Source: Chryseobacterium turcicum
Lineage (GTDB): Bacteria; Bacteroidota; Bacteroidia; Flavobacteriales; Weeksellaceae
NCBI RefSeq assembly: GCF_021010565.1
Contig: NZ_JAJNAY010000003.1
Coordinates: 62,001 to 126,000, forward strand
Direction of reading: 5' to 3'
Length of the DNA: 64,000 bases
How positions within the stretch are numbered: position 1 is the stretch's first letter; each line of letters begins with the position of its first letter. Below the pieces are notes generated by a model. That model saw only the letters and a program-made list of their open reading frames with translations. It made no database searches and had not been told where the DNA came from. A program made the translations under genes and the position numbers. Shown here piece after piece: positions 21,808 to 30,607 of the stretch.

Positions 21808-22011
21808 ACTTCGCCAAACGCCTGGACGTTAGCTGTAATGAAACAAACCTATTTCTTAAGAAGCAGGAGATCCGCGAAGATTGAAAATTGCAACAGCTGC
21901 ATTTAGGTAAAAACAGTATTCGTGGCGGTCTTTCCTTGGGTGAAATTCCTAAATTATGCTGCAGATTTTTCAACCTTCCACGCTTCCAGGTGCCGCTCAA
22001 AAAACTATAAT
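21808..22011 (+). pseudogene. Decayed coding remnant of unknown gene
   Basis: Directly outside transposon B a plus-strand frame encodes FAKRLDVSCNETNLFLKKQE, meets a TGA, then continues as LGKNSIRGGLSLGEIPKLCC and FFNLPRFQVPLKKL to a stop. The composition looks protein-like on both sides of the stop. It has no start codon, because the 5' end was removed at the transposon junction. No family is recognised with confidence. Confidence 0.35.
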
Positions 22012-22725
22012 GCCGAATTTTTACAAATCTTTTAAGCAAAATAAGCATCGTAAAACAGCAATCATTCCCATCTTCAAACCTTTGTTTTTACTCAAAGAAT
22101 ATAACTATTTCAAAGCTGATTCCCGCTCTTAGGAACTGTAATTACATTAGCGAAAATCTCTTTATACACTTTTAATCTCATCAAAATTGGCAAAAACTGG
22201 ATATTGTCTCCGTACTAGATTACCATGTAATAAGATTTTTTTATATTAAATAAAAAGACCATTAAACGCACTATTTTCTACTGTAACTAATTTAAAAAGA
22301 TAAAATTATATTCATAACGTATTAGATTACCAAATAGTTAAATATAATATACTAAATAAAATACTTACACACAATAATTTATTTTATATATTTATATAAA
22401 TCTAGGATTTTTGCAATTAATTTGTATCAAATATCAAAATAAGTCAATTACGGAGTCATTATCTACTTTCTACAAAATATTATGAACTCTCAAACAGGCG
22501 GAGACATTATCCGGTTTTGTGAAGAAAAATTTAAATAAAAATAAAATTACAACACATTGAAAATAAGACTAATAAATATTTAATTTCCCCTTATTTTTAC
22601 TAACATTTATTATTTTTTTTATAAAATTAGAAATGTTTATTATTTTAATATAATTAAGGGTTCAATTCGAAAAAAGCGTATTCCTTTTATTTAAAGTATC
22701 TTACAGCGTTTTAACTCTTAAATTT
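22012..22725. other. AT-rich non-coding region beside the iterons
   Basis: About 700 bases without a credible intact gene, next to the iteron array, so it probably contains part of the replication origin (AT-rich melting region). It holds scattered iteron-like sites at 22199-22214 (inverted), 22450-22464 and 22499-22513. The last two lie in a primase-like remnant. Confidence 0.5.
22437..22538 (+). pseudogene. Degenerate fragment resembling the primase N-terminus
   Basis: The plus strand encodes NYGVIIYFLQNIMNSQTGGD then IIRFCEEKFK and a stop. This mirrors two neighbouring segments of the primase encoded at 23854-25098 (NHGDIIRFFHH and MNQDSGDIIQFIKKRI), with some residues missing between them. 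The two GDII-type segments fall on two iteron-like DNA sites in both places. It is most likely a leftover of a duplicated primase gene. The short ORF starting at the ATG at 22482 would encode 18 residues. Confidence 0.5.
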
Positions 22726-22845
22726 ACGGAGACAATATCCTGCTTTACGGAAACAATATCCAAAATAACGGAGACATTATCTTTTTTAACGGAGACAATA
22801 TCCAAGATATAGGAAACATTATCCGTAAATACGGAGACATTATCC
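22726..22845 (+). repeat. Six direct iteron-like repeats at 21-bp period (candidate origin)
   Basis: The 15-base unit ACGGAGACAWTATCC starts at 22726, 22747, 22768, 22789, 22810 (variant TAGGAAACATTATCC) and 22831. The spacing is exactly 21 bases, two helical turns. The last copy touches the stop codon of rep. Direct repeats on one helical face beside a Rep_3-type gene are the hallmark of an iteron-controlled plasmid origin. Binding by Rep is inferred. Confidence 0.85.
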
Positions 22846-23861
22846 TAAATGGTTTCTATCAATGCAAAAACAGCTTTAATGTAGGCTTCTCCTTTCACAT
22901 CTACATCAATCTTACGTTTTAAATGTTTTGATAATTCCTGATAGCCTCTTACTTCGTACAGTTTTCTCATTATGCGCACCTGCTGATCGTCGAGTGCACG
23001 CTGTCTCTTCAGATACTTTAATGCTCTATCTATCTGTAATTCATCCAGTGTAGGGAATTTTTGGTCTATTCCTACTGCATTTTGAGTGTCGTAAATAATA
23101 AAATGATAATGTCCTTCTTTGTAAGAATAATTGAAACTGATATCATTAAAATTATCCAAATCTGCTTTTACACGAACAAGAAAATCCCTTTCAAAGCGGT
23201 AATTGCCTTCATATTTAGTTACCGGGATAGAAAGCTCCTTCAAAAGTTGAGTGTATTCTTTAATCACTCCTCCATTCTTGTTGAACTTCACCAACCACAT
23301 TAAAAACCTCAAAGTATTGCTGGTTGATGTATTGAATGACAAATCTTTTTTAATGGAGTAATACTGGCTCATATTAAGCATGTGCTGCATTACGGCCTTA
23401 TCCATCTTAAAGAATATTTGTTTCTTGTTCCAACTTGGTTCAAGGATGAAAGGAACTGCTTTATATCCATTAATGGTTTCATCTTTAAGGCGTAACCAAT
23501 TGATATTAGTCATGTTAACCAATGCTTCCTGAATAGCAGAGTTTTTCATTTTACGCTGAGGATTGATGTCTGCAATGGAAACTGCAAAATCTACAACGCC
23601 CTGGTGAGCCCAGCCTTCGAAATAGTCATCAAAAGTCAATTGCTTATCTGTAGCAGTATTTAAAGAAGATTTTGGAGTAATAAACATCGCCTGATCATCT
23701 TTCACTGCAGAAAGAATCATCGTAATAATACGCTGCTCAATGATAGACGTTTCCTGAGAAATAAGCACTTCCCGGAAATCATTTGAAATCAAAACTTTTT
23801 TTCGCTGTTTTGAAGTTAGTGTTTCTCTTTTCATGGGTGACTGACCATCTTTTTTACTCAT
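22845..23861 (-). CDS. rep: Replication initiator protein (Rep_3/RepB family)
   Basis: A 338-residue initiator. I start it at MSKKDGQSPMKRE, whose ATG overlaps the primase stop by 8 bases (ATGAGTAA); a longer frame exists but lies inside the primase gene. The N-terminal winged-helix half contains LISNDFREVLISQETSIIEQ and VDFAVSIADINPQRKMKNSA. The second half carries TSNTLRFLMWLVKFNKNGGV and RFERDFLVRVKADLDNFNDI, the usual Rep_3 layout of two winged-helix domains. It is expected to bind the iterons directly downstream, melt the origin and control copy number. It is the last gene of the parA operon. Confidence 0.9.
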   Translation of the reverse strand: MSKKDGQSPMKRETLTSKQRKKVLISNDFREVLISQETSIIEQRIITMILSAVKDDQAMFITPKSSLNTATDKQLTFDDYFEGWAHQGVVDFAVSIADINPQRKMKNSAIQEALVNMTNINWLRLKDETINGYKAVPFILEPSWNKKQIFFKMDKAVMQHMLNMSQYYSIKKDLSFNTSTSNTLRFLMWLVKFNKNGGVIKEYTQLLKELSIPVTKYEGNYRFERDFLVRVKADLDNFNDISFNYSYKEGHYHFIIYDTQNAVGIDQKFPTLDELQIDRALKYLKRQRALDDQQVRIMRKLYEVRGYQELSKHLKRKIDVDVKGEAYIKAVFALIETI

Positions 23862-25098
23862 TTGAAAGGCTTTTTTGTTGAATGAGATCTTCGTTGAAGT
23901 CCTTATTGAAAGGCTGATGAATACGCACAAACTCGTCAAGCCTCCAAATCTTTAACAGCAAACCTACGAAAAATTGAATGGAATCTTTGGTATTGCCAAT
24001 AATGAAAATGAACTTAGCACTATTTTGGGATAATGTCTCCGTATAGTATGTCATTTCCAAATCTTTATCTCTGAAATTTGTGGGAATATACTCTAGCCTG
24101 CGGAAAAACTGTTTTAAAATATTAAAGTTTTTATGTTCCACGGAGACAATATCCAAAATTATTGTCTCGGTTGTTTTTCTTACCTGTTGAATCTCCTTGA
24201 TAAATGCTGAAACGATGTTCAAGTTGAAATATACTCCGGAAATATCATTATCATTGCCTAAAACCAGCTTATCAAAGCTATTAGAGGTAAAGTATTCTTT
24301 AATGTTTTGCGCTTTACTGAAACTTAGCTCTCCGTTGGAAGAACAATACTGCGTATTTGCCGGGTTAAAAATTTCAGCATAGCTCATTGCATCAAAAACA
24401 CTTTCAAAAACGGATAATGTCTCCGTGACTTCCGGTTTTTCAGAAAACGTAAATCCAATTGAATTTTTTGAATTTACATCAAACCATTTTTTGTTAAAAT
24501 AATCTCCTTTTCCCGTAAAAACTCTGTGTATACCAACCACGTCGCCACTTATATCTTTCACAAAGTAAGATAAACTGGTTGTATTATCTTTCCTGTAAGT
24601 AAATAATGTATTTTGAAAAACTCCAGAGAGTATAGTATCTCGATTGAACTTACGGTACTGCTCCAAATACTCCCAATGAAGACTTATTTTTTGGATAATG
24701 TCTCCGTTAATCTGATAATGAGTCGGCTCGACCTCTTCAGAAACTTGAGCAAAATAGGTTTTTGATACTTTTATTCTACTATCATCATTACCCAATCCTA
24801 AAAACAAGCGCAGTTCTTGGTTGATTTCTCCCGGTAAAGCTGAAGTATTATTCAAAATTCTTTTTTTGATAAACTGGATAATGTCTCCGCTATCTTGATT
24901 CATAATCGAATAATACATCTTCACACCTGATCTTTCATGATGAAAAAAACGGATAATGTCTCCGTGATTTCCATTTTGATGAAGCACATACGCTTTTTTG
25001 CATTTATCAAAACTGTACAGGCTTCCCATTTTGAACAGAAAATACTGCTCAATATCCACTTCTCTTTTTACTCTTTCCCAGTCTAAAGTGTAACTCAT
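23854..25098 (-). CDS. Toprim-domain primase-like protein with embedded iteron sequences
   Basis: A 414-residue protein related to plasmid DnaG/Toprim proteins. The N-terminal part contains NHGDIIRFFHH and DSGDIIQFIKKRI, matching the GD-I-xF segment that follows the CHC2 zinc finger in bacterial primases. Only one clear cysteine is present, so the zinc site is degenerate. The central and C-terminal part is Toprim-like (ETLSVFESVFDAMSYAEIF and VLGNDNDISG, about 215-300). It probably supports replication started by Rep. It ends overlapping rep and begins next to the partner gene. At least six copies of the iteron motif lie inside the gene in different frames. Confidence 0.78.
   Translation of the reverse strand: MSYTLDWERVKREVDIEQYFLFKMGSLYSFDKCKKAYVLHQNGNHGDIIRFFHHERSGVKMYYSIMNQDSGDIIQFIKKRILNNTSALPGEINQELRLFLGLGNDDSRIKVSKTYFAQVSEEVEPTHYQINGDIIQKISLHWEYLEQYRKFNRDTILSGVFQNTLFTYRKDNTTSLSYFVKDISGDVVGIHRVFTGKGDYFNKKWFDVNSKNSIGFTFSEKPEVTETLSVFESVFDAMSYAEIFNPANTQYCSSNGELSFSKAQNIKEYFTSNSFDKLVLGNDNDISGVYFNLNIVSAFIKEIQQVRKTTETIILDIVSVEHKNFNILKQFFRRLEYIPTNFRDKDLEMTYYTETLSQNSAKFIFIIGNTKDSIQFFVGLLLKIWRLDEFVRIHQPFNKDFNEDLIQQKSLSNE
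24028..24965 (-). repeat. Iteron motif copies inside the primase gene
   Basis: Exact or near-exact GGATAATGTCTCCGT occurs at 24028-24042, 24412-24426, 24693-24707, 24876-24890 and 24951-24965. GGATATTGTCTCCGT occurs as its complement at 24140-24154, with a weaker half-copy at 24157-24171. They encode TETLS twice, GDII three times and LDIVSV once, so the DNA word is conserved independently of reading frame. Confidence 0.85.
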
Positions 25099-25893
25099 TT
25101 AAGAATCTGATTTCGATTTTCTTCCTCTCAGTTTTTCGTCTTCTCTGATGTAATCTGGTCTCGATTGGATTTTGTCTCCGTATTTCTTCTTCAATTTTTG
25201 AATGCTTTCTTCCAAAAGATCCCAGTCTTTATAGTAAAGATCCCCACTTACCACTTTATTGTAAGTAACATCTTTTATAAAATCGAAATATTCTCCAGGA
25301 ATGTAAACAGTAGTTGTTGTTCCATAAGCTTCATCTGAATTGCGCTTTCTACCGCCTTTCTTGTTTTTCTCCTGTTCACGGATAAAATCTGGTCTTGGAA
25401 CAATATTTTTGTGAGTAGGAATTATCAAATCCATTGCTTCTACAAAAGCTTCAGATTGGTTGTAAAAAATTAACCTTTCCTCTGTTGCCTTGTAGAACAC
25501 CAAATCTTTGAGAAACTCCAGAGAATCTGCTTTTAAAAAGATGGTAAAAGACCGTTTCGTCTGATTTACTGTAATTTGTTTCGCATAAGAGGTTTTATTG
25601 GTTTGAGCAGTCGCCAAAGCGGCTTTTGCTTCCAAAATTTCTTTTTTCACAGGTCTTTTCTTTTCAACAGGCCTCTTTATTTCATTTACCAAATCCTTTT
25701 CTACCTTCGGCGCCGTCTCTTCGACTTTCTCTACAACTTCTTTCGGCTCTTGTTTTTTAACCTCGTCAATAACTACTTCAACAGTTTCTTCATCTTTTAC
25801 GGAGACAATATCCACTTTTTCATCTTCAGCAGGTTTTAACTCCTCTTCTTTTTGCTTTAAGGTTTTAAAGTTTTTAAACAGATTCGCTTTCAT
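25099..25893 (-). CDS. ParA-partner protein (DUF3408/TraB-like, possible centromere binder)
   Basis: A 264-residue protein. The first 120 residues are low-complexity and rich in glutamate, lysine and valine. The rest holds two similar modules, FTIFLKADSLEFLKDLVFYK with EAMDLIIPTHKNIVPRPDFI, and VYIPGEYFDFIKDVTYNKVV with QKLKKKYGDKIQSRPDYIRE. This resembles the ribbon-helix-helix-like C-terminal region of DUF3408 proteins encoded after ParA ATPases on Bacteroidetes mobile elements. Its position between parA and the primase gene suggests a partition or conjugation-accessory role. It overlaps parA by 20 bases. Two iteron-like copies lie inside it. Confidence 0.65.
   Translation of the reverse strand: MKANLFKNFKTLKQKEEELKPAEDEKVDIVSVKDEETVEVVIDEVKKQEPKEVVEKVEETAPKVEKDLVNEIKRPVEKKRPVKKEILEAKAALATAQTNKTSYAKQITVNQTKRSFTIFLKADSLEFLKDLVFYKATEERLIFYNQSEAFVEAMDLIIPTHKNIVPRPDFIREQEKNKKGGRKRNSDEAYGTTTTVYIPGEYFDFIKDVTYNKVVSGDLYYKDWDLLEESIQKLKKKYGDKIQSRPDYIREDEKLRGRKSKSDS
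25167..25181 (-). repeat. Iteron-like copy inside the partner gene, 3' part
   Basis: GGATTTTGTCTCCGT, one mismatch from GGATATTGTCTCCGT. It encodes YGDKIQ in the protein. Confidence 0.55.
25799..25813 (-). repeat. Iteron copy inside the partner gene, 5' part
   Basis: ACGGAGACAATATCC, identical to iterons 1 and 4 of the origin array. It is read in the protein as VDIVSV. Confidence 0.75.
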
Positions 25894-26656
25894 ACTTCTT
25901 TATTTTAGATTTAATCTCTTTTACTAAATTCTTATAATCTTCCGCAGCTCTACTGCTGGAATTCACCTGGAAGATATTTTTCCCTTCCTGCTTTGCTTTC
26001 TCAATATTCATATCCTGTCGAATATATGTTTTAAAGAAATAGTCTTTCGCTTCCTCTTCTTGCTTAATCATTTCACTGTACTTCCTAAAATTAACCGTAT
26101 TTGTAAGTACTTTGTTAAAGAAAAAACCTAAAAATTCAAGATTAGGATTATGCTTTTCTTTTATATTCATAAATGCAGGAAGCAAATTATCAATCCCGGC
26201 AAAAGAATATTGCTCAGCTTCAATAGGAGACATTACGTAATCCGATGCACACAGAGCCATTTCACCTAAAGTCAGTTTTTTCATCAAAGGACGTGGAGGA
26301 CAATCTATGAGAACATAATCAAAGGGCATCTGCTCTAACAAGTTTGTTAAATTTGTTTTCAGCGTATCCCTGTTGTAACTCTCTTCTTCTTCCAGCAAAG
26401 CGTCGCCTGCAAGAATATACACATTAGAACTGCCATGGTGTTTCAGTCTGAATTCCCCGGTATTATCTAAAAAATTTTTCACTGTATACGGATAGTCATC
26501 TTCGATACCGTAACCCATTGAAAGATTTTTTTGACTATCGAAGTCAATTAAAAGCACATTTACTCCCTTTTTCTTAGACAATGCAGCTCCTACATGAATT
26601 GCGGTAGTAGTCTTCCCTACTCCTCCTTTTTGCGTAATAATTGAAATAATCGACAT
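25874..26656 (-). CDS. parA: ParA-family partition ATPase
   Basis: A 260-residue deviant-Walker ATPase. I start it at MSIISIITQKGGVGKTT, placing the motif at the usual N-terminal position; an upstream extension of 14 codons is not conserved-looking. The Walker A is KGGVGKTTTAIHVG (about residues 10-23), the second aspartate region LLIDFDSQKNLSMGYG, and Walker B DYVLIDCPPRPLMK. These proteins segregate plasmids or act in conjugative elements. It is the first gene of the leftward parA-partner-primase-rep operon. Confidence 0.95.
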   Translation of the reverse strand: MSIISIITQKGGVGKTTTAIHVGAALSKKKGVNVLLIDFDSQKNLSMGYGIEDDYPYTVKNFLDNTGEFRLKHHGSSNVYILAGDALLEEEESYNRDTLKTNLTNLLEQMPFDYVLIDCPPRPLMKKLTLGEMALCASDYVMSPIEAEQYSFAGIDNLLPAFMNIKEKHNPNLEFLGFFFNKVLTNTVNFRKYSEMIKQEEEAKDYFFKTYIRQDMNIEKAKQEGKNIFQVNSSSRAAEDYKNLVKEIKSKIKKYESESV

Positions 26657-26677
26657 AAACAAATAGTATAGATATTT

Positions 26678-26715
26678 CAAATTTACACAATTAAACAATC
26701 ATACACAATCATTAA
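26678..26715 (-). promoter_or_regulatory. Putative parA operon promoter with direct repeats
   Basis: On the minus strand TAAATTTG (26685-26678) fits the Bacteroidetes -7 box TAnnTTTG, with TTG 20 bases upstream. Two imperfect ACACAATnA repeats overlap this site, as expected for autoregulation by ParA or its partner. No experimental support. Confidence 0.5.
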
Positions 26716-27317
26716 AACAAATAATTATATTAAATAATGTATTGTATAACTTAATATATTTATCTAACTTATATATTTTAAAAACTTTTTACAATTTAAA
26801 CATTTCATTCATTTAGAACATTTAAAAATACTTTCCTTATCTCAAAAATAAATTAAACTCTTTTTAATATAAAGAATATATTACTTTTACCAAATAGACT
26901 ATTTATTGTATTTAATAAATTTTAAATATTAGCAAAAAATTATCTAATAATATATCAAATTAAGGAATATATGCAATGTTATATTTTATAGATTCACTAA
27001 TTAATTACATTTCAATTTTTAGGATTAATAAAATAGTAAAAATATGAATATACATAATTAATACAATTTATACAATGTAATATTTTAATTATTTATATTG
27101 TTTTAAATATTTGAATACTAAGTTGGTACTTAAAAAATAAATTATTACTTTTACGGCATAGTTAGAATCGGCAGTTGTTAATCTTTGTAACAATCTGTAA
27201 TGCCGATCTGGTTTGACTTTTCAGCAAACAGCTATTCAAAAAAAACTAAAATCCCAACAGTTTCTCTGGAAACAATAAACTATTATTTAGTCACACCAAA
27301 ACTAAAGAAATATTATT
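26716..27317. other. 600-base AT-rich intergenic region
   Basis: No gene is evident. Composition is extremely AT-rich between divergent parA and the GNAT gene. It could hold a centromere-like site or the GNAT promoter. The only clear structure is the hairpin at 27167-27207. Confidence 0.5.
27167..27207 (+). promoter_or_regulatory. Hairpin in the leader of the GNAT/LuxR operon
   Basis: ATCGGCA pairs with TGCCGAT seven for seven. Inside, GTTGTTA pairs with TAACAAT, with one wobble as RNA. The hairpin lies about 110 bases before the start codon and has no T run, so a leader structure or protein-binding dyad is more likely than a terminator. Confidence 0.45.
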
Positions 27318-27887
27318 ATGATTATTGGTACTCACCAAGAAAGAGATATTGCAATTGATATTTTATGCAAATCTTTTTACAATGTTTTAATTCCAAATTC
27401 TATCAACTTTGTTGTAAATGAGAATGGAAATCGCTACAAAAAATTAAAAGCTTTAATGAGCTATCAAGTTGATTTGAGTCTTCTATATGGCAAAGTTTTT
27501 CTTAGTAATGACAGAAAAGGCGTTATATTATTTTTAGATAATCCTCCGCAAAGTTTAAAAAGATTCTACCTCGAATTGAAGTTAATCTTCAAATGCATTG
27601 GGATCAGCAACGTTTTTAAAGTATTGAAGCTTGAAAATCTGCTTAAAAAGAATCATCCGGAACACGAATACATCCATCTTTGGTTAATGGGAGTAATCCC
27701 TGAGATGCAGGGCAAAGGAGCAGGAAGCCAACTCCTCAATGAATCTTTGCAGCAATTTAGAGACGATTTTATTTTTGTTGAAACTACAACAACCGAAAAT
27801 CTGAATTTTTACCAGAAAAACGGATTTGCAATATTCAACGAAACACACCAACTCGATTATCCACTATATTTTTTGAAAAATGTTTAG
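27318..27887 (+). CDS. GNAT-family acetyltransferase
   Basis: A 189-residue acetyltransferase. The acetyl-CoA binding loop is visible as LMGVIPEMQGKGAGSQLL at about residues 127-144, followed by VETTTTENLNFYQKNGFAIF, the usual GNAT C-terminal strand and helix. The substrate is not predictable. Its stop overlaps the next gene by 8 bases, so it is co-transcribed with the membrane LuxR protein. It sits between the partition and conjugation modules. Confidence 0.85.
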   Translation: MIIGTHQERDIAIDILCKSFYNVLIPNSINFVVNENGNRYKKLKALMSYQVDLSLLYGKVFLSNDRKGVILFLDNPPQSLKRFYLELKLIFKCIGISNVFKVLKLENLLKKNHPEHEYIHLWLMGVIPEMQGKGAGSQLLNESLQQFRDDFIFVETTTTENLNFYQKNGFAIFNETHQLDYPLYFLKNV

Positions 27888-28963: not shown

Positions 28964-30607
28964 ATGCAAATTATTGATTTAAGCTTACGAAACTGGATGA
29001 TTTTGATTACCACTTTAGGTTTTCTGTCATCTTTGGTCTATCTGCTTTTCAAATCAAAATCTTATTTTGCTACAGCATTTTTTACACTTAGTTATTTTTC
29101 ATTTTTAGCTTTTGCTTACTGGAAAATTGATAGTTTAAAATTTATTATTTTCTATCAATTCTCTCCAAGCTTTTTTATTGGCTCAATAACTTTTCTTCTA
29201 CTAAAGCCAGCTAAGACAGACCCGATTTGGGATGTGGAATTTAGCACCAACAAAGGCACTAAAATACTGAGAGGAGTTCAAAGAGGGGTTGCTGTTTTTG
29301 GTGCTGCAGGTTCGGGAAAAACAATTTCTGTGATCCACAATCTGATTCTACATTTTTCCAGAGAAAAATTTTCCGGAATCATTTATGATTTTAAAGACGG
29401 AGAATTGACCGAGTTAGCAATTCCAGCATTCGGAAATCAACTTAGAATTATCGCAATACATCAACCGGAAATAGGTTTCAGAGTCAATCCTATAGATCCA
29501 CGGTTTTTAAACGGAGAAAAAGACGTCAATGAAATCGTTACGGTCATCATGGATAACCTAATCAACAGTGGAGTAGGGAAGGGCGATGACTTTTTTAAAG
29601 ACAGTGCGTCATCACTTCTATCTAGTGTAATTCTAAAATTTTCATTCACTCATCCAGAATATTGCACATTACCACACATCATTAGCTTTATCCTCGGGAT
29701 TGATTTTAGCAGTAAGTCTGAAACGCCAGCTTTAGGTGGTGAAGAAACTGAAAATAAATTCGGAAAACTAAAAGATTTTCTAACAGATAATGAACGGGTT
29801 GCTCTTCAAGGCTCAGCTTTTATCATGGGGCTTTCGTCTGAAAGACAGACGGCTTCAGTGATTTCTACTTTGGCCAACGCTCTCAGAAAGATCTCTTTTC
29901 CCGAAGCTTTTTGGGTCCTCAGTGGAAATGAAATTTCATTTGACATCAATTCAGAAAAAAATAACAGTGTCATATCTGTTATAAATGAACCTAAATCAAG
30001 TCGGTTTTTAAGTCCTATCAACGCCACAATCATCCATGCTATTACGAAGCAAATGATGGTGAGAGGGAGAAAGCCATCATTTCTTCTGCTTGATGAAGCT
30101 CCGACCATTAAACTTTTAAACATGGCACAAATTCCGGCGACCATGCGAAGCTTTGGAGTTGCTGTTGTGTACTGTGCTCAGGATATTGTACAGGGAACTG
30201 TACAATATGGCAGAGATGGATTTAAGGAAATCATTGCCAATCTTTCAACCCAGTTCTTTGGTAAATCTAATGACCCTGATACTTCAAAATTCTACGAATC
30301 TTTTTTTGAACTCATAAAGCAACAGACAAAATCTGTTTCTACAAAAGGAATGGTAAGTCTTTTCAGTACTGGTGAAACAAGTACAACTATAGGAGAAAAA
30401 GAAGTTTCAAAATTCCGGGCAAGTAGATTCAATTCTCTGAAAGTGGGAGAGTTTGCTTTTTTATCGGATGGAAATACCGACATCGTAAAATTTAAACCAC
30501 CGAAAATCGAAAAAGGTAAAATACCGATAAGGAAGAAAATAACCCAGGAAATGCTGGAAAGAAATTTCAGCCAAATCATTGACGAAGCAAAACTATTAAT
30601 TGATTAA
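28964..30607 (+). CDS. Type IV secretion coupling protein (VirD4/TraD-like ATPase)
   Basis: A 547-residue protein with two or three N-terminal membrane segments (residues 12-80). Walker A is FGAAGSGKTISVIHN at about 112 and Walker B is SFLLLDEAPTIK at about 370. The later RSFGVAVVYCAQDIVQGTVQ and the short C-terminal tail resemble the TraM-recognition region of VirD4-type coupling proteins. It would deliver the relaxase-DNA complex to the channel. It is the first gene of a long rightward operon. A relaxase gene is not found in this window. Confidence 0.9.
   Translation: MQIIDLSLRNWMILITTLGFLSSLVYLLFKSKSYFATAFFTLSYFSFLAFAYWKIDSLKFIIFYQFSPSFFIGSITFLLLKPAKTDPIWDVEFSTNKGTKILRGVQRGVAVFGAAGSGKTISVIHNLILHFSREKFSGIIYDFKDGELTELAIPAFGNQLRIIAIHQPEIGFRVNPIDPRFLNGEKDVNEIVTVIMDNLINSGVGKGDDFFKDSASSLLSSVILKFSFTHPEYCTLPHIISFILGIDFSSKSETPALGGEETENKFGKLKDFLTDNERVALQGSAFIMGLSSERQTASVISTLANALRKISFPEAFWVLSGNEISFDINSEKNNSVISVINEPKSSRFLSPINATIIHAITKQMMVRGRKPSFLLLDEAPTIKLLNMAQIPATMRSFGVAVVYCAQDIVQGTVQYGRDGFKEIIANLSTQFFGKSNDPDTSKFYESFFELIKQQTKSVSTKGMVSLFSTGETSTTIGEKEVSKFRASRFNSLKVGEFAFLSDGNTDIVKFKPPKIEKGKIPIRKKITQEMLERNFSQIIDEAKLLID

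Follow-up and report, generated by a model that had tools for sequence, protein, structure and literature searches.

Iteron words dispersed through the toprim and mid coding sequences of Chryseobacterium and Kaistella plasmids as candidate Rep-binding sites

We analysed a stretch of 64,000 nucleotides from Chryseobacterium turcicum (contig NZ_JAJNAY010000003.1, positions 62,001 to 126,000), hereafter called the window, which is part of a 126-kb contig in a three-contig genome and whose nearest relatives found are Chryseobacterium plasmids. Its minus strand carries, in this order, the genes parA, mid, toprim and rep, and a 15-base word that is repeated in tandem beside rep occurs again, as single copies, inside toprim and mid. 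These dispersed gene words are a real feature that is conserved as DNA, and the likeliest account of them is that they serve copy control as sites for Rep, written over coding sequence. Judging from sequence comparison, we put at roughly two in three the probability that they are Rep-binding sites kept by selection on the DNA, which would limit replication through titration and handcuffing by analogy with known iteron plasmids.

The putative origin is an array of six 15-base iterons on the plus strand (22726..22845), spaced by 21 bases and abutting the 3' end of rep (22845..23861, minus strand); of the six, three are exact, two differ at one base and one at three. An iteron plasmid origin is expected to have direct repeats in tandem beside rep, spaced by about two helical turns, as here. 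The array stands at the same place in seven related plasmids and in twelve further elements with a related Rep, and in the plasmids it again has six copies at 21 bases, with one 22-base step in Kaistella. Further words extend to about 640 bases past rep: a distal iteron, GCGGAGACATTATCC, at 22498..22512 (plus strand), with a counterpart in all eight plasmids at 324-336 bases beyond the rep end, a word with two changes at 22450..22464 (plus strand) and an exact word at 22199..22213 (minus strand), the last two with a counterpart in the C. balustinum plasmid only. A perfect DnaA box (TTATCCACA) was found within 700 bases of rep in two of the eight plasmids, one-mismatch boxes only in five, the window included, and none in one.

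The eight plasmids are those of the window, C. balustinum (L021), C. oryzae (L010), C. vrystaatense (L029), C. piscicola (L023), C. sp. G0186 (L011), C. potabilaquae (L022) and Kaistella yonginensis (L024). Among 320 genomes of the family, exact words (with R at position 6) occur in 41, of which 33 have 1-2 and eight have 6-13, and these eight are the carriers of this replicon. Their Toprim proteins are 51-83% identical to that of the window in six relatives and 52% in Kaistella. Counting the word in related plasmids had been proposed in a preliminary description of this DNA, and all seven carry words at homologous places. Two words 41 bases apart were also seen on a 220-kb contig (L088, G036:C2:170362-170417), where no long reading frame covers them; no Rep match was found in that genome, and the pair is possibly the trace of an integrated plasmid.

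The eight gene-internal copies of the window lie in toprim (23854..25098, minus strand) and mid (25099..25893, minus strand) exactly where they had been reported, six of them exact and two with one change. On the strand of the genes, the exact toprim words at 24028..24042 and 24412..24426 are both read TETLS and are kept in 8/8 plasmids. Three other toprim words are read GDII, namely an exact one at 24693..24707 (8/8 plasmids, the codon holding word position 6 being D, N or H), one with a single change (GCGGAGACATTATCC) at 24876..24890 (7/8 plasmids, with two changes in Kaistella) and an exact one at 24951..24965 (7/8). The mid word at 25167..25181 has one change (ACGGAGACAAAATCC), is read GDKI and is present with at most one mismatch in 5/8 plasmids. 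The remaining two are exact and lie on the plus strand, antisense to the genes: the toprim word at 24140..24154, read LDIVSV, is found in only 3/8 plasmids, and the mid word at 25799..25813, in the fast-changing N-terminal part of the protein, is kept with at most one mismatch in 8/8. The readings given earlier stand apart from the last one, which is VDIVSV and not LDIVSV; as for the name of primase gene, a Toprim_2 domain is present (E 9e-7), but primase activity is at most suggested by it.

Chance does not account for these numbers. Allowing three mismatches, the word occurs 21 times in the window, against a mean of 1.9 and a maximum of 6 in 100 shuffled windows, and in the 4.48-Mb genome all exact matches lie on the 126-kb contig, within about 3.6 kb; with one mismatch allowed, the sole further match is one on contig C1. 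A comparison with codon-shuffled genes, which had also been suggested, gave on average 0.016 exact words and 0.246 words with at most one mismatch in 1000 synonymous-codon shuffles of toprim and mid, where 6 and 8 are observed, and none of the shuffles reached either count. The same holds for each of the seven related plasmids, whose codon shuffles never reach that plasmid's own count. The word of the origin array occurs outside the origin, as is expected of extra-origin iterons; it is absent, at up to one mismatch, from parA and rep in all eight plasmids (parA of G0186 being covered only partly here and in the next count). A 10-base match within parA was attributed to chance, since only 4/8 plasmids have the half-word.

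Comparable sets were sought in other replicons. Nine further Weeksellaceae plasmids (L069-L077), eight sharing parA-like DNA and one a 30% identical Rep, were examined for repeated 11-mers over stretches of 10-15 kb, at most six 11-mers being shown per locus, and no set like that of the window was found: L073 has no 11-mer at four copies, and in the others the main repeats are clustered, but for one copy in a rep-like gene in L076 and one intergenic outlier in L075. An A+T-rich 11-mer with four scattered copies in L070 was taken as chance. Two loci with a 28-29% identical Toprim protein (L019 and L020) have different neighbours and no word set, and two peptide patterns run against viral contigs yielded no confirmed relative of the Toprim protein. 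Profile searches of solved structures with the Rep and Toprim alignments gave weak hits to other proteins only.

That the gene words are under selection at the DNA level is well supported. When the 15-base windows of the toprim codon alignment of the eight plasmids are ranked by identity, the top four non-overlapping windows coincide exactly with words (codons 224, 130, 44 and 354), and the next, starting four bases early, overlaps the codon-69 word (whose own window ranks 28 of 1234, and without G0186 the five toprim words rank 1, 9, 24, 9 and 24). In mid, the third-best window overlaps the codon-26 word, within an otherwise poorly conserved stretch of protein; the codon-244 word comes no higher than rank 180 of 802. 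At both TETLS sites the DNA reads ACG GAR ACA TTA TCC in 8/8 plasmids, and at the third GDII site D is replaced by N or H, yet the codons ATT ATC are unchanged in 8/8. Where the residue is the same as in the window, the codon is also identical in 0.94-1.00 of cases inside words against 0.53-0.68 outside in five relatives, the corresponding values being 0.82 and 0.60 in Kaistella and 0.69 and 0.52 in G0186. At toprim codon 314, an exact antisense word is confined to the members of one clade (support 1.0), namely the window, C. balustinum and C. oryzae, and the other five plasmids have a different sequence there; a gain in this clade is the simpler reading of that pattern.

Gene words and array words can also be compared with each other. 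Each of the eight plasmids combines 4-9 gene copies with an array of six and at least one distal copy, and the same 15-base core is common to the 55 gene copies and the 48 array copies compared. In the gene copies, positions 1, 6 and 10 are variable, and three changes fall at 11 and one at 14; in the array copies, positions 1, 2, 6, 7, 8, 10 and 15 are variable, a difference favoured by the admission of gene copies at up to two mismatches and of array copies at up to four; the gene copies are not significantly closer to the consensus (exact, with R at position 6, 41/55 versus 28/48, p 0.10). The preliminary description had pointed to homologous genes on plasmids with different iterons as the case in which retention of the same residues and codons would speak against it. 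None of the carriers found has an entirely different iteron, and the nearest available case is Kaistella, whose array differs most at position 6 and whose gene copies differ likewise. Position 6 is A in 4/6 array copies and 4/6 gene copies of Kaistella, as counted separately from the array-profile scan, in which the array register was off for Kaistella and some hits there were counted twice, and in 9/42 and 4/49 copies of the other plasmids (p 0.038 for the array and 0.0027 for the genes, all p-values given treating sites and plasmids as independent, which, being related, they are not). One of these Kaistella changes turns GDII into GNII.

A trace of the word seems to be visible also in more distant proteins. 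In an alignment of 75 Toprim homologues, for which only protein sequences were used, a single column of the 413 consists to 90% or more of Y, N, H or D with at least three of these kinds present (72/75), namely that for the first codon of the third GDII word; the four residues share little chemistry, and all have NAY codons. At the final codon of this word, 70/75 homologues have Q, P, H or L, all with C-starting codons, a test passed by one other column of the 413. At the protein level, a few distant homologues (P0057, P0060, P0067, P0070 and P0071) have candidate words at new places, with TETLS or TETIS at residue 107 of P0067 and P0070, and P0071 has at residue 351 DNVS, an antisense reading of the word, where the second TETLS stood, as if the word had been flipped between strands.

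Concerning the protein that would read the word, Rep is the best candidate. In 12/12 loci with Rep relatives (seven aligned ones are 58-63% identical and the others alike), a related word array abuts the end of rep, and the 13-20 kb read at each contains no parA, mid or toprim. Ten of the twelve contigs are longer than 200 kb and the other two measure 29.5 and 53 kb; the elements are not independent, as L060 and L065, and also L026 and L028, look closely alike. When each was scanned with its own array profile, nothing was found beyond the origin in 11/12, and L061, for which the array register of the scan was off, remained at background level (4 hits beyond the origin versus 2.8 expected). Because these elements have the array alone, the array goes with Rep and the dispersed copies with the plasmid operon, and because related arrays adjoin related rep genes without mid, toprim or parA nearby, we infer that Rep would be the protein binding the gene words. 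Consistently with this role, the predicted Rep structure appears to have the tandem winged-helix fold of Rep_3-type initiators, its best matches being Pi on iteron DNA and RepE. A second related Rep, encoded on the large contig C1 of the same genome (L063, G000:C1:3237740-3238744), has beside it an array of six copies of another word, AGGGAGATAAAGTCC, as would be expected if the words set specificity. Three of the Rep relatives, in G060, G169 and G240 (L040, L041 and L047), have an in-frame TAG, a hint of decaying elements.

If this assignment is right, Rep would bind the words inside toprim and mid while both genes go on coding for protein. The bound Rep would be withdrawn from the free pool (titration) and could pair with Rep molecules sitting on the array (handcuffing), and both steps would lower replication, in the manner of the incC iterons of F. 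The effect of the gene words would thus be a negative control of copy number, as in iteron plasmids generally.

Several observations weigh against this interpretation. Confidence in the Rep model is modest (predicted local distance difference test, pLDDT, 63.6; predicted template modelling score 0.36), and no Pfam initiator family reaches the cut-off for Rep: Rep3_C is matched in 2/14 Rep members (best E 0.038) and Rep3_N in 1/14 (E 0.6), neither in the Rep of the window. Strong mid matches occur only alongside the dispersed words (8/320 genomes), so that, going by co-occurrence, mid may be the reader of the gene copies. The G0186 plasmid lacks the words at toprim codons 44 and 69, where it retains GDII through other codons, and also the mid codon-244 word; as it does without three of the seven words common to most of the other plasmids, single copies are dispensable, and the retained GDII indicates that the protein is constrained at codons 44 and 69 too. 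In the homologues, GDII (within GDIIRFF) is invariant at codon 44 in 72/72 aligned sequences and present at codon 69 in 71/75, and the fingerprint is confined to the third GDII site, the first residue being H, N, Y or D in 57/72 at codon 44 and S in 73/75 at codon 69. Applied to mid by itself, the codon test does not reach significance (2/6 versus 20/114, p 0.30). The parallel between array and genes at position 6 comes from one plasmid, Kaistella; the share of A in the two sets is not significantly correlated over the eight plasmids (Spearman 0.36, p 0.38), and the A of Kaistella is found also in C. vrystaatense at codons 130 and 354 and in C. piscicola at codon 354.

Some of these points would suit the explanation that protein conservation and codon bias create the words, in particular the near-invariant GDII motifs, the behaviour of G0186 and the mid codon test. 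This explanation is nevertheless largely refuted, and we give it almost no credence, because codon-shuffled genes never reach the observed counts, the words head the ranking of alignment windows, codon identity is raised inside them, antisense words lie in poorly conserved stretches (mid codon 26 and toprim codon 314) and D, N and H are exchanged at word position 6 beside fixed ATT ATC codons. The preliminary description had held that protein conservation alone could not explain the words, and this is upheld except at codons 44 and 69, where the protein is constrained as well. A role of the words in RNA or on one strand, by which words carried in the operon transcript would base-pair with array copies in reverse-complement orientation or act as priming sites for the Toprim protein, is nearly as implausible: in its favour, 6/8 gene words of the window are sense-oriented and the array is opposite, but the mid word kept in 8/8 plasmids is antisense, and so is another kept in 3/8.

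Negative feedback on the operon deserves more weight, although we regard it as rather doubtful as the principal function; it is compatible with titration. Rep bound to the words in mid and toprim would block RNA polymerase and thereby lower mid, toprim and rep, but parA, which lies upstream of all gene words, would still be made. The arrangement of the genes is favourable: toprim and rep overlap by 8 bases, and the only promoter-like site with -33 and -7 boxes on the operon strand of 22001-27400 is a candidate directly upstream of parA (26678..26708, minus strand, TTG...TAAATTTG), which recurs in 4/6 other plasmids scanned. It contains no word, nor does any lie near this place in 7/8 plasmids, C. 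oryzae having an 11-base partial word only, and parA and rep are free of words as described above. Because the gene words all fall between the candidate promoter and rep, a roadblock on mid, toprim and rep may act too, which is speculation. On the other side, the promoter is a putative one, recognised by a Bacteroidota consensus motif; among the six other plasmids, Kaistella has no promoter match and C. piscicola has one inside toprim instead; the words lie on both strands; and lone bound proteins are often weak roadblocks.

It is also conceivable, if improbable, that the words form a dispersed centromere, read by mid as a ParB-like partner of ParA or by Rep and mid jointly. In 7/8 plasmids mid lies directly behind parA (in G0186, parA spans the start of the record), its restriction to the genomes with dispersed words has been mentioned, gene-internal copies occur only together with partition genes, and the C-terminal half of mid may, as judged by eye, resemble two ribbon-helix-helix units. 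Family searches with the mid protein (264 amino acids) gave no match above the cut-off, and its predicted structure (pLDDT 42.4) was too poor to interpret and was left unused. Against a centromere stands the array itself, which in 12/12 related-Rep elements occupies the same place with neither mid nor parA nearby, and so is not tied to partition genes as in a ParABS-type system. Binding of the words by Rep, with an effect on copy number, remains our preferred interpretation.

As regards the surroundings, parA (25874..26656, minus strand; the longest open reading frame extends to 26698) is the first gene of the group. At 28964-30607 a gene for a type IV secretion coupling protein follows GNAT and LuxR-type genes, which suggests a transfer region. 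The G0186 plasmid with this replicon has an annotated run of class I lanthipeptide genes (L011:15766-18806) beside lantibiotic dehydratase and LanC-like genes.

Extra-origin iterons are not new in themselves: those of P1 incA are of the same kind as those of F incC. The incC iterons are described as a negative regulator of copy number and an incompatibility factor, whose deletion raises copy number, and an F origin plasmid failed alongside a high-copy incC plasmid, most likely through the excess of incC (PMC13028717). As in the window, these iterons lie outside the origin and beside the rep gene, but incC is one locus with five iterons downstream of the repE frame, whereas the window has single copies over about 1.8 kb in two genes, in several frames and both orientations. 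Extra-origin initiator sites of plasmids are described as inhibitory through titration and interaction with origin sites (PMC3937223). Vibrio cholerae chromosome II has dispersed extra iterons that titrate its initiator RctB at some 40 kb from the origin (PMC3937223, PMC6090056); there, however, six sites are spread across 74 kb of chromosome, and the only overlap with a reading frame described in these sources is one 39-mer in rctA, which is described as transcribed but not translated. Iterons inside coding sequence are known from phages lambda, P22 and L (PMC8022706), where they are the origin repeats within the initiator's own gene, unlike the window, whose array lies outside and whose extra copies fall in non-initiator genes. 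In the repABC plasmid p42d a replication signal within coding sequence was probed by silent mutations (PMC3155836), but that signal is the origin itself, A+T-rich and without iterons, in repC. Within the open PubMed Central literature, whose coverage excludes most subscription journals, we found no description of a plasmid in which coding genes other than the initiator gene hold dispersed single iterons. The earlier statement that no such copy set was known is accordingly narrowed: coding iterons in phages and extra-origin iterons in F have precedents, and what appears to be new is the scatter of single copies through non-initiator genes, in several frames and both orientations.

The finding suggests that DNA sites for an initiator constrain protein sequence, with natural replicates in eight plasmids, 75 homologues and one plasmid with a shifted word. 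We tentatively entertain a wider possibility, less probable than the Rep-binding interpretation itself, that the control circuit is embedded in the coding sequence of its own operon, where the words would dictate parts of the Toprim and mid proteins and act both as titration sites and as roadblocks that spare parA. Equally tentative is the corresponding history, in which words would have come and gone in different frames and on either strand. Were such a circuit to exist, the genes themselves would be where copy number is read, and any shift in iteron specificity would force changes in the proteins. If Rep does bind the gene words, its coevolution with the iterons could be traced through codons, some conserved residues of Toprim and mid would reflect DNA sites and not protein function, and searches for copy-control sites should reach beyond intergenic DNA.

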